NCBI GenBank assembly: GCA_005776395.1
Contig: SXPJ01000073.1
Span: forward strand, 1 to 57,820
Direction: 5' to 3'
From: Bdellovibrionales bacterium
GTDB lineage: Bacteria; Bdellovibrionota; FAC87; UBA2466
Length of the DNA: 57,820 nt
The translations under genes and the position numbers were made by a program. Shown here piece after piece: positions 8,244 through 29,867 of the stretch. The notes beneath the pieces were generated by a model, which was not told the DNA's origin, made no database searches, and worked only from the letters and a program-made list of their open reading frames with translations. Each line of letters begins with the position of its first letter. The first letter of the stretch is position 1.

Positions 8244-8456
8244 ACAACACCCTAGAATTTTTAGCAGAAAGACCTAAACGGTAAGAACTCCCCCATCATA
8301 AGGCCGTGGTCAGTAATATTCTTAACCATAGAAAATAAGTGGAAGTTTTATTACTGCTTTAGGCTTCCTATCTAGTAGGCATGCACACCACAGCAAGTGA
8401 AAACTCCTGGTTAAGAACTTGTAAGGTTAGAATAATTCTCACTCACAAACCAGACA

Positions 8457-8494
8457 GGGGAGCTACTTCTATTATATAGAAAAAGTAGCCCCCC
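8457..8494. terminator. hairpin in the 320-base gap between phaR-like gene and 8243
   Basis: The 8244-8565 interval has no convincing gene. Its clearest element is an inverted repeat: GGGG-A-GCTACTT at 8457-8468 pairs with AAGTAGC-C-CCCC at 8483-8494 (11 pairs, one A.C mismatch, 14-base loop). It lies about 70 bases downstream of the phaR-like stop and is a possible transcription terminator for that gene. There is no adjacent U-tract in the minus direction, so the assignment is tentative. Confidence 0.4.
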
Positions 8495-21570: not shown

Positions 21571-23414
21571 CGAGATTGCTCCTTTCTCTTAAAAATAAGA
21601 GAGAGATAGTGAGGATTCATATAAAACATGGTTAAAATTCCAAGGCACATAATGAGCGACCCCAAATACTTGATCATTCTACCGGGATCAAAATTTACCG
21701 AAAAAACTGAAACTGGAGGACGCCCCTCCTCTATAGAGTAACTGGCCTGATAGAAGGTATAGCCCCCATACTTGAGAGGCTCATTCATACTAATATTAGC
21801 TTTTTGCTCAGTTCCATTAGAAGGATCCTTAACTACCACATCACTTTCATAACTTGCGGCCTTTGTCGTTCCAGGATCAGTGCCGATTTTAAATTTTTCA
21901 AGAAAAATAGAAAAAGGGAGGTTAAGTTTTTTTCTAATAAACTGAATAAAAAGTTCTCTTCCTGCTATGTTGATAAGCTTTCCTTGCCCTTCAAATAGCC
22001 ACCAGCCCGAGGATTCATCTGACTGGATAGAGGCAAGATTTCTATTTGACTCAACTATGTGAATAGCACTTAAATAATTATCTCCACTTCCGGAGATAAA
22101 CTCGATTGAACGTGGAATCGTTTGCTCAACTGCATTAGGCAGCCACTCCTGAATTTTAAATTGCAAATCCATCCATCCCGTTGGCGTAATTACCCCAGGT
22201 AAAATCTCCCCCTTAGCCTTAACCCAACCCTCTTTACCCTGGGTTCGATAATAGAGCTTTGAACCCTCTACTGTTTGGGCGAAGGCAAGCTGTCCACGCT
22301 GATTTCCCACAATTGCGAGAGAGGGATTATTATTCTTAGCTATCTCCATTCTAAACTTAAACCCTAGAGCTTTCTTTTTACTGTGAGCTCCATGCAAGGT
22401 GGAGAACTCAGGAAAATTGGCAAAAATCGTGTGTTTTTCTACAGCTTCGGAATCAGAGCTATTTGCTTCTCGGATCGTTAAATGCAGTGCTGGATTAATA
22501 GGGTCGTTCGAACGATTAAGCAATCGATTATTCTCAACCACAGCATGAGGGAGATACTCATCGACTCGCACCTCGTATTGCCCACCAGCAAATGGAACAA
22601 AGCCACGTTGAACTTCTGATATTGTAAATCGATATTCTTTTCCTTTTAAGTTAGCAATTAAAAATCCCGGAGAGGGGGGTAGAGATTTACTAACCTTGGG
22701 AGCTAGAAATTTCTTTAAGTCTTCACCCGAATGAAGAGTCTGAAATGTTACAAGTGCGGGGCCTAAATTAATTTCTGTAGGCTTTGAGGGATGCTGAGCA
22801 AAAATAGCCTCTTCTAAGCGAAATTTTGAGTTAAATAACTCAAATCGAACAGCAGGAGATCCAAGACCGGAAATGGGGCTTTCTCCTAATTTTCTCTCAG
22901 CTACTGCTCTTGGCACAAACCTATCCACAGTAATTTGGCTATCATCTCCGAAATTAACAGAAAGAATTTTGGAAATATTTTCCCGATAGTTTTCTGTGAT
23001 AGTAAACTCTTTTTTTACATTCTTTGCCTCATCAGTCACAGATAGCACTAAATTATTCAGCGTAATTTCATTTTCCTGACTGGCTTCAGTGACCGGCATA
23101 TTGGCATCAACACCCCATTTTTGAGTTAAAAATGAACCTATCAAAAGAGTAATAATTCCCAGATGAGTTAAAACAAAACCGGTCTGACTCTTTTTCCAGG
23201 GAAATCGCGCCAGAGCCGCGCATAATACATTTAAGCCCAATAAAAAGAGAACCCCTCCGAACCAGGGGGTTCCATAAACCAACACATAAACCGCCCGAGT
23301 TCCATAAAGTGATTCGAGACAGGTCGCAACTGTCAAAACAAGAGCTAACAGCAAAATAGAAATAACCGCCAACTTGAGGGATGAAAAAAACTTAAATAGG
23401 GGGAATTTCATCAT
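21567..23414 (-). CDS. resB: ResB/Ccs1-type cytochrome c biogenesis protein
   Basis: 615 residues. Three N-terminal helices (SLKLAVISILLLALVLTVAT, WFGGVLFLLGLNVLCAAL, TGFVLTHLGIITLLIGSFL) with FFSSLKLA and a large periplasmic domain ending in a final helix (YLGSLIMCLGILTMFYM) are the ResB layout, including the conserved PLKYGGYTFYQASY. It holds apocytochrome for the CcsA heme channel. ATG at 23414 is used; the longer frame to 23516 overlaps ygfZ and has no family match in that extension. Confidence 0.9.
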   Translation of the reverse strand: MMKFPLFKFFSSLKLAVISILLLALVLTVATCLESLYGTRAVYVLVYGTPWFGGVLFLLGLNVLCAALARFPWKKSQTGFVLTHLGIITLLIGSFLTQKWGVDANMPVTEASQENEITLNNLVLSVTDEAKNVKKEFTITENYRENISKILSVNFGDDSQITVDRFVPRAVAERKLGESPISGLGSPAVRFELFNSKFRLEEAIFAQHPSKPTEINLGPALVTFQTLHSGEDLKKFLAPKVSKSLPPSPGFLIANLKGKEYRFTISEVQRGFVPFAGGQYEVRVDEYLPHAVVENNRLLNRSNDPINPALHLTIREANSSDSEAVEKHTIFANFPEFSTLHGAHSKKKALGFKFRMEIAKNNNPSLAIVGNQRGQLAFAQTVEGSKLYYRTQGKEGWVKAKGEILPGVITPTGWMDLQFKIQEWLPNAVEQTIPRSIEFISGSGDNYLSAIHIVESNRNLASIQSDESSGWWLFEGQGKLINIAGRELFIQFIRKKLNLPFSIFLEKFKIGTDPGTTKAASYESDVVVKDPSNGTEQKANISMNEPLKYGGYTFYQASYSIEEGRPPVSVFSVNFDPGRMIKYLGSLIMCLGILTMFYMNPHYLSLIFKRKEQSR

Positions 23415-27884: not shown

Positions 27885-29033
27885 CTATTTTGCTTTGATA
27901 GATGAACTGTTTTTTTGAATGATGGGTTTAGCTTTTGGATAAAATTTGATTTCAGCAGTATTCGAGATCCTTAGGAAATAGCCAACCGATCCCCCTAAAA
28001 TCAACGATATAAGCGCAGTCACAAGAAGAGCCCAGGGTATTCTTTTAAAAAAACTACGCTCTTGAACCCACTCCGAATATTGAATAGCCGGACTGATCAA
28101 CGCTTCTTGATCCAGATACTTCAGAATCACATCAGAAGTACGTGTGTTTTTTTCAGCTCCTAAAAATTGCTCTAGTTCCGAAATTACCTTTTTCACATCG
28201 GAGTACCTATCTTCAGGATGCTTTTGCAAACACTTCTCAATAATTTTGTCCAATTTTTTAGGTATAGCAGAATTCATCTTTCGAGCTGGAATATATTTAG
28301 TTTCTCTTATTCTCTGAAATACTGTCTCTTTTTCAGCCTCTTTAAATGGACGGGTTCCCGTAAGCATTTCATAAAGTGTAATTCCCAATAAAAATATATC
28401 CGCAGCAGGAGTAATAGGATCTCCTAAAACTTGCTCAGGGGAAAGATAACTCGGAGAACCCACCATCATTCCAGGTCGAGTTAACGAAGTGTTTTCAATG
28501 TCCATTACAATACCAAAATCCATCAGTTTGACCTCACCCCGAGTAGTCAATCTGATATTGGCCGGTTTTATATCTCGATGAATCAAATGATAAGCATGAA
28601 TATAACTCACTCCACGAGCTACATTTAAAAGAATAGAGGCCGCAATTTCAGGGGGTAAATTACCCACTTTTTGAGTCACCGTAGAGAGATCGATGCCTTC
28701 AATGTATTCCATTAATAAAAAAGAATCTTTGCCCGATTCAACAAAGTCATAAACGTGGGCGATATTTTGATGAAGCACTGAAGCCAACGCCTTTGCCTCA
28801 CGACGAAATCGCTCTAAAGTTTCGGGATTGGTAAAAAGTTCTTCTTTTAATTTTTTAACGACAATATACCGCCCCAATGACGGTTGACGAGCTTGAAATA
28901 TGTGAGCCATTCCCCCAGAAGCAATTTTTTTGACTTCGTCTAAAACTCCACGAAGCCGTGCCACTTTTTCTTCTGGCGAAAAAATATCTGTAGAAGATAT
29001 CGTGTTTGTTTTTTGCTCTTGTGTATCCATCAA
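27885..29033 (-). CDS. membrane-anchored Hanks-type Ser/Thr protein kinase
   Basis: 382 residues. Kinase subdomains are visible: glycine loop (IASGGMAHIFQA), VVKKLKE with the catalytic Lys, HRDIKPANIRL catalytic loop, DFGIV magnesium motif, GSPSYLSPEQ P+1 region. After the kinase domain there is a juxtamembrane stretch and one transmembrane helix (WALLVTALISLILGGSVGYFL), then a short basic tail with no sensor domain. Such PknB-like kinases signal at the membrane. Its upstream region holds the structured RNA and terminator described at 29158-29324. Confidence 0.93.
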   Translation of the reverse strand: MMDTQEQKTNTISSTDIFSPEEKVARLRGVLDEVKKIASGGMAHIFQARQPSLGRYIVVKKLKEELFTNPETLERFRREAKALASVLHQNIAHVYDFVESGKDSFLLMEYIEGIDLSTVTQKVGNLPPEIAASILLNVARGVSYIHAYHLIHRDIKPANIRLTTRGEVKLMDFGIVMDIENTSLTRPGMMVGSPSYLSPEQVLGDPITPAADIFLLGITLYEMLTGTRPFKEAEKETVFQRIRETKYIPARKMNSAIPKKLDKIIEKCLQKHPEDRYSDVKKVISELEQFLGAEKNTRTSDVILKYLDQEALISPAIQYSEWVQERSFFKRIPWALLVTALISLILGGSVGYFLRISNTAEIKFYPKAKPIIQKNSSSIKAK

Positions 29034-29122
29034 TTGAAGTTGTTCTCGTGGTGCAAATTAATAATTAATGCTATCACGAGTTTTCAATCAACTCATCCTT
29101 TACCTAAAATAGATATTTAAAT

Positions 29123-29154
29123 GGGGGACTCCAAACTTTCGTTTGAAATCCCCC
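29123..29154. other. second hairpin just beyond the terminator
   Basis: GGGGGA (29123-29128) pairs with TCCCCC (29149-29154), and inside it CAAAC (29132-29136) pairs with GTTTG (29141-29145) around a TTTC loop, with a 3x3 internal loop between. It lies immediately after the U-tract of the minus-strand terminator and about 90 bases before the kinase start. It could be part of the kinase leader or a backup termination element. Confidence 0.45.
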
Positions 29155-29157
29155 CAC

Positions 29158-29191
29158 AAAAAAGCCGCTATTTTCACCCTGAAAATAGCGG
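29158..29191 (-). terminator. intrinsic terminator of the structured RNA
   Basis: A perfect 12-base-pair stem, CCGCTATTTTCA (29165-29176) with TGAAAATAGCGG (29180-29191), has a CCC/GGG three-base loop and is followed on the minus strand by GC and six T (29158-29163). This is a textbook Rho-independent terminator for transcription coming from higher coordinates. Confidence 0.85.
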
Positions 29192-29324
29192 ATGAGAGAG
29201 GAGTAGTGGTACCACGAAAGAGTCTCTGTAAAACCCCTTCGTGCTGCCCTACGGCAGTCGGCTGCTAGAGACTTTATCTCCAGCAAAGCACATCCGATTT
29301 TCCCTTCTTATTCTCTCATCGGAT
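29158..29324 (-). ncRNA. probable structured non-coding RNA or 3' leader, unclassified
   Basis: About 165 bases between the stop of a small membrane-protein gene and the terminator above. Read on the minus strand it can form a closing helix (ATGAGAG at 29192-29198 with CTCTCAT at 29313-29319, plus-strand bases), and inside it three strong hairpins: GCTGGAGA/TCTCTAGC, CTGCC/GGCAG, and an 11-pair stem beginning CACGAA and ending TTCGTG. An alternative 7-pair stem (ATCCGAT with ATCGGAT) competes with the closing helix. I could not match it to 6S, tmRNA, RNase P, SRP or a known riboswitch. It may be a free RNA, a 3' UTR or a leader of the kinase gene. Confidence 0.45.
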
Positions 29325-29615
29325 CTATTCTTTTTCCCCTTGGCTCCGATCTGTTTCAGTTGCAAACTGATCCGACCATTCTAAAACCTGGCTTAACTTA
29401 TCCGAACTCAAGGAGTCCTTGTAATCCATTTTTTCCCCAGTAGCTGCCTGCTGAAAAACCAGTGAATCGGCCTCCCGTTGCCCTCTAAATTTAGATTCTC
29501 CAGCCCTTGCCCTCATCGGAATTAATAGAATAAAAGCTCCAATGATAATGGAGAAAAAAATGAGTTCCAAAATCTGAGCAACTTTTATGTTATGACTCCG
29601 ATGCTGATAAATCAC
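29325..29615 (-). CDS. small single-pass membrane protein
   Basis: 96 residues with one hydrophobic helix (ILELIFFSIIIGAFILLIP) and a charged soluble tail. The GTG at 29615 is chosen because AGGGGG lies 8 bases upstream; the frame can be extended to 29672 without a good ribosome site. No family recognised. The structured RNA begins right at its stop codon. The upstream interval 29616-29867 contains no other gene; a TTGACA box at 29797-29802 on the minus strand with a weak -10 about 17 bases further could be its promoter. Confidence 0.5.
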   Translation of the reverse strand: MIYQHRSHNIKVAQILELIFFSIIIGAFILLIPMRARAGESKFRGQREADSLVFQQAATGEKMDYKDSLSSDKLSQVLEWSDQFATETDRSQGEKE

Positions 29616-29867
29616 AATGCTTGTCCCCCTTGAGGAATCCCCTCTGCTCTCTATCTCAAATCCTATTAGCAAGCCTGTGCCATAAGAGAGTGACTTACAA
29701 AGCTACAATGAATAAAATTCTTAACCCACTGAACTAATTATATTTTTTTGAGTTACCTATGGGATGGGGGGCTTAATCGTTTAGACTTTGGACAATTGTC
29801 AAATTGTTAGACACCCCTACAAAAGTTCGTCACATTTAATTTAGTTTTAAAAAGCTAAGTTCAGTCA

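Follow-up and report, generated by a model that had tools for sequence, protein, structure and literature searches.

The CcsR1–4 small RNAs (sRNAs) display pyrimidine-rich loops that resemble an anti-Shine-Dalgarno (anti-SD) sequence. In BbsR14 of Bartonella bacilliformis, anti-SD motifs (TTCCTCCTAA) are found inside stem-loops (PMC7717549). CJnc230 (FlmE) of Campylobacter jejuni is processed from the RpoN-dependent transcript of an upstream gene, presents a conserved single-stranded anti-SD flanked by two stem-loops, and represses mRNAs (PMC11187230). The attack-phase sRNAs and merRNA of Bdellovibrio bacteriovorus were reported to have no significant homology in genomes other than that of B. 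bacteriovorus (PMC3627812). The subject of this study is an RNA of about 160 nucleotides (nt) encoded on the minus strand of a 57,820-nt stretch of DNA from a Bdellovibrionales bacterium (contig SXPJ01000073.1, assembly GCA_005776395.1), which is referred to in its entirety as the window. Judged from its sequence and those of its relatives, the element is probably a member of an undescribed sRNA family that acts in trans by means of an anti-SD-like seed. This reading is suggested by a set of invariant unpaired letters amid changing hairpins, together with a terminator, paralogues and dedicated promoters.

Of the described systems, CJnc230 is the closest functional parallel. As in CJnc230, a conserved unpaired anti-SD-like stretch (ACCACUACUCCUCUCUC) lies between two stem-loops (P4 and P5), the RNA is positioned 3' of a gene, and the promoters of stand-alone relatives suggest a link to RpoN. 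The two RNAs are unrelated in sequence and phylum, and the anti-SD of CJnc230 is a CCUU within a 12-nt stretch (PMC11187230), whereas the present family has an invariant unpaired core of 14–17 nt and stand-alone paralogues with sigma-54 promoters directly 5' of the RNA. BbsR14 is alike in being an sRNA with anti-SD motifs, and differs in that the present seed is single-stranded between hairpins (PMC7717549). The CcsR1–4 RNAs of Rhodobacter sphaeroides, for which the host protein is the RNA-binding protein CcaF1, come from another phylum, have another architecture, and present no evidence of homology (PMC8625941). The B. bacteriovorus RNAs are small RNAs of the same broad predatory lineage; merRNA differs in holding a cyclic di-GMP riboswitch (PMC3627812), to which the present locus has no Rfam match. 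Family f6, inferred to include Bdellovibrio, yielded no exact seed.

The most conserved part of the RNA, a pyrimidine stretch between covarying helices, had gone unmentioned in an earlier note on the window. The sequence ACCACTACTCCTCTCTC is unchanged and present as a single copy in all 12 genomes of the order where the kinase gene was found, followed by the terminator and then by the kinase gene. Across the genomes of the order, the sequence of the flanking helices mostly changes while the seed stays fixed. Phylum-wide, the seed core spans 14 nt (29207–29194, ACUACUCCUCUCUC). The complement of the seed, GAGAGAGGAGUAGU, is a strong Shine-Dalgarno-like sequence. A leader peptide read through the seed (W-Y-H-Y-S-S-L frame) was considered and rejected since an in-frame stop codon lies directly 5' of the motif in two relatives (G006 and G014).

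The earlier note had described a strongly structured RNA in this setting, and both the structure and the setting were reproduced. The predicted minimum free energy of 29324–29158 (minus strand) is −71.2 kcal/mol compared to −45.4 ± 3.8 kcal/mol for 200 dinucleotide shuffles (z = −6.8), none of which was as good, and the 7-pair 5' stem, the three hairpins, and the 12-pair terminator with U6 were all recovered between a small open reading frame (ORF) with one hydrophobic segment and a Ser/Thr kinase gene (Table 1). The terminator stem (29191–29165) is followed by CUUUUUU. Covariation in homologues, which the note had named as a check, was observed as compensatory changes in P1, P4 and P5. When P3, P4 and the terminator were aligned over 11 relatives, 90% of the cells were paired (60% or less when slid). 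Changes on both sides affected 13 of the 24 pairs, compared to 6.7 ± 1.6 in shuffles. For P1, an alignment built from segments chosen by eye in seven relatives was 93.8% paired compared to at most 56% when slid, with two pairs changed on both sides.

Table 1. Positions of the RNA, its parts and the adjoining genes in the window.
Feature	Position	Strand	Remarks
Whole RNA element, sRNA-A type, about 160 nt	29158..29324	−	From just past the small-protein stop codon to the terminator U tract; basis: fold z score, 12 homologues in the order, covariation
P1 hairpin, AUCCGAU...AUCGGAU	29292..29324	−	Seven pairs, 29324–29318 with 29298–29292; the earlier note's alternative stem
P2 hairpin	29262..29286	−	Predicted in relatives despite differing sequence; U-rich stretch on the 5' side
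P3 hairpin, CUGC..GCAG	29244..29257	−	94.7% of cells paired in 11 genomes with little variation; absent in G010
P4 hairpin, CACGAAGGGG...CUCUUUCGUG	29213..29243	−	Both-side changes in 6 of 8 scored pairs in 11 genomes; absent in G010
Invariant single-stranded seed, ACCACUACUCCUCUCUC	29194..29210	−	Between P4 and P5; the same in 12 of 12 kinase-retaining genomes of the order
P5 intrinsic terminator with U tract	29158..29191	−	Both-side changes in 7 of 12 pairs in 11 genomes
Closing helix	29320–29312 with 29199–29191	−	Energy prediction only; pairs P1 loop with seed
Small ORF, one hydrophobic or signal-like segment	29325..29615	−	Probable host transcript of the RNA
Ser/Thr kinase gene	27885..29033	−	Beyond the terminator; Pfam Pkinase 7.3e-53; linkage to the RNA only in this order

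The closing helix proposed in the earlier note was recovered as an energy prediction and fared less well in the relatives: over 12 genomes, the 75 nt on the 5' side were no more complementary to the seed than shuffled sequence was (mean z = −0.21). Since the closing helix is without support in relatives, P1 probably forms as a genuine 5' hairpin and leaves the seed exposed, although the energy model predicts little exposure in this particular RNA. Weak pairing between the purine-rich P1 loop and the seed is possible; a shuffle test gave no support to sequestration of the seed by this loop, and the idea was dropped. The note had not matched the RNA to a known family by motif, and it belongs to no known Rfam family: Rfam, searched at gathering and relaxed thresholds, gave no match at the locus nor at 12 loci in relatives. 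A T-box leader, suggested by a GGUACC sequence, was also rejected given the lack of an Rfam match, a downstream gene that encodes a kinase, and the absence of GGUACC in several relatives (G006, G010 and G014).

When relatives were searched at the DNA level, three other species of the genus proved to have the RNA and three further members of the family gave partial matches; the conserved part in this search was the 3' third. ORFs similar to the small-protein ORF sit 5' of the RNA in G001, G003 and G004. An apparent joint loss of the RNA and the kinase gene in G002, G005 and G011 was not used as evidence because the kinase of G005 runs off the contig end, and the nearby Mrp/ApbC gene likewise has no close homologue in G002 and G011.

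The covariance-model search advised in the earlier note did retrieve further members. A total of 369 genomes of the phylum were searched with a covariance model (R1), the 14-nt core pattern, and then a second model (R2). The core, (A)CUACUCCUCUCUC, followed by a terminator, recurs away from the kinase in five to six further families, in exact form in f8, f14 and f16 and in variant forms in f27, f28 and f29. Two forms were distinguished, with the forms and the family counts being a reading of the listed hits and not a blind classification. In form A, the hairpins, the seed and the terminator lie 3' of an ORF for a small secreted protein or a lipoprotein; this form occurs in the order of the window (f1 and f2), in several genomes of f8, in two of f14, and perhaps in one of f29. 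Form B is a stand-alone gene of about 75 nt, composed of one hairpin, the seed and a terminator behind a sigma-54 −24/−12 promoter; it was identified in 18 f8 genomes, one genome each in f16, f27 and f28, and probably in f29. In stand-alone form, the seed is predicted to be 64–100% unpaired. An alignment of 13 f8 form-B genes shows a drifting spacer and invariant promoter boxes, along with an invariant stretch of some 20 nt around the seed and a CCGC/GCGG hairpin stem that is invariant over most of its length. The neighbouring genes differ outside the order, with the f8 form-B gene usually upstream of lipA. A longer form of the motif occurs in metagenome-assembled genomes labelled Bdellovibrionaceae, Deltaproteobacteria, Proteobacteria or simply 'bacterium', which suggests Bdellovibrionota as the phylum.

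Some genomes hold two or three copies of the RNA. Second form-B copies, driven by sigma-54 promoters at other loci, are found at G361:C289:26697-26802 and G362:C6:12387-12497 (L183 and L184). In G337:C77 (about 2635–2788; L110 and L172), the form-B seed is interrupted by a GCAAGTCCGCGAGGACTTGG hairpin that occurs as two direct copies. At the margins of the family, the model hits inspected in f6 and f9 were discarded, since in some a coding gene ends and a terminator follows, and others match the seed exactly but have no terminator; hits in G112 were judged to be due to chance for want of a terminator. The exception in f9 is G122, which presents a sigma-54-like box with a degenerate seed and was not discarded. 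G367 is a possible member since a strong terminator-like hairpin follows the match. No exact seed was found in viral contigs, and a phage origin was rejected.

The sigma-54 consensus TGGCA-N7/8-GC[A/T] precedes 24 stand-alone copies, at a distance of 47–79 nt 5' of the pyrimidine core (51–54 nt in most f8 copies). A terminator was detected by script in 21 of these 24 promoter-bearing copies; in the remainder (G331, G052 and G337) the T run is short or missing, or a hairpin is inserted. The patterns and energy cut-offs of both the promoter and terminator tests were set after the first examples had been seen. The RpoN domain was identified in 18 of 19 genomes. Hfq (PF17209) was found in none of the 19, the window's genome included, while the same model matched 5 of 14 control genomes; thus, the RNA is not placed among the Hfq-dependent sRNAs.

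As a trans-acting sRNA, the RNA would begin as the 3' portion of an mRNA for a small exported or membrane protein, with its end at the terminator before the kinase gene. We infer that it is released from this transcript, either whole or cut 5' of P2; the U-rich stretch 5' of P2 may serve as the processing site. The body of the RNA would then present a chain of hairpins (P1–P4), the unpaired seed, and the terminator. The seed would pair with GAGAGGAG-like Shine-Dalgarno regions of mRNAs, and the pairing would block ribosome binding and lead to repression without Hfq. In the other families, a shorter paralogue with its own sigma-54 promoter would issue the same seed under a regulated signal. Read in this manner, the regulator is of an ordinary type and the lineage a little-studied one; the sRNA family is new, is conserved in parts of the phylum, and has an unusually rigid seed. 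A more ambitious proposal treats the RNAs as a phylum-wide, Hfq-independent family whose unpaired seed resembles the 3' tail of 16S ribosomal RNA, so that seed and ribosome would compete for strong Shine-Dalgarno sites. The family would provide a global translation brake under sigma-54 control, one form being cut from the mRNA of a small protein and the other made from its own promoter. This extension is doubtful.

Several observations weigh against a trans-acting sRNA. In four genomes of the genus, near-complements of the seed were no commoner than the reversed pattern, a control with biases of its own that stem from common codon pairs and from a TAG inside the pattern. Only one of about 29 near-complement sites resembles a convincing ribosome-binding site (rpoD in G004), and the other three genomes offer nothing at that level. 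In the predicted ensemble for the RNA of the window, the seed is just 29% unpaired. The promoter search at the window's copy identified no sigma-54 site, and sigma-70-like matches were at the level of chance. Finally, G347 and G330 carry long CU repeats in place of the exact core, which would suit a pyrimidine-binding protein equally. The rpoD site (G004:C89:48308-48319; L191) is a near-perfect complement of the seed, AGAGGAGUAGUC, at an apparent ribosome-binding site; the gene was named by eye from its sequence, and the site may be regarded as a lead only. The CU-dinucleotide expansions lie before the terminator at G330:C11, about 21755–21850 (L185), and in the G347 sRNA-A (L146, about 1259).

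The same CU repeats bear on a different explanation, in which the CU-rich stretch is bound by a protein such as an RNA chaperone specific for pyrimidines, ribosomal protein S1, Rho or some unknown regulator, with the RNA acting as a sponge or the motif serving to stabilize or process the 3' end. A motif that is invariant yet resides in unpaired RNA would be expected of such a site, the reverse complement of the seed is not enriched in the genomes, and with no Hfq found another partner may be needed. A low-specificity pyrimidine binder, however, requires neither 14–17 identical letters over two families nor a core with a fixed ACUA start, and the stand-alone sigma-54 genes resemble regulated sRNA genes. 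A protein site is considered unlikely. The least probable explanation is that the locus has no regulatory role and serves the small-protein gene only as a 3' untranslated region with a strong terminator. The position directly past the stop codon in the window agrees with this, and 3' ends often fold well, but a terminator has no need of 14–17 invariant unpaired nt across families, and both the stand-alone sigma-54 copies and the paralogues with the same stretch would be left unexplained.

The earlier note had likened the alternative pairing to switching RNAs. In such a cis-acting switch or attenuator of the downstream kinase, P1 and the closing helix would exchange and read-through of the terminator would depend on a signal. 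Within the order, the RNA is always directly 5' of the kinase, and two mutually exclusive pairings are predicted. The closing helix, which competes with the alternative stem, is nevertheless conserved no better than chance in the relatives, and none of the predicted structures contains an anti-terminator to compete with the P5 stem. In addition, G007 and G012 have a second hairpin and T run past the terminator, and outside the order the RNA is untied from the kinase, with many members having their own sigma-54 promoter. The unpaired pyrimidine seed, as the most conserved part, also suits a trans-acting sRNA over a cis switch. Taken together, a switch is highly improbable.

If the trans-acting sRNA family is real, a conserved family of sRNAs with a fixed seed extends across several families of a phylum that includes predatory bacteria. 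The small RNAs reported from RNA sequencing of B. bacteriovorus were, in contrast, without homologues outside one species (PMC3627812). With no Hfq found and sigma-54 promoters present, the family raises the question of how sRNAs function in a lineage that apparently has no Hfq, and of what is under sigma-54 control in it.

With respect to the neighbouring sequences, Pfam and NCBIfam gave no match for the small ORF. Relatives suggest that it starts at a GTG at 29615, and the longest ORF begins at 29672. The sole Rfam match in the window is a 6S RNA gene at 8286–8463 on the minus strand (92 bits). A second strong hairpin, GGGGGGAUUUCAAAC...GUUUGGAGUCCCCC, lies immediately past the terminator (about 29122–29157, minus strand), and its counterpart in G007 and G012 has a T run of its own. 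In the leader of the kinase gene, there is an inverted repeat, CTCGTG...CACGAG (29045–29080), with similar dyads in G001 and G003. This dyad is possibly an operator or part of the promoter region of the kinase gene.
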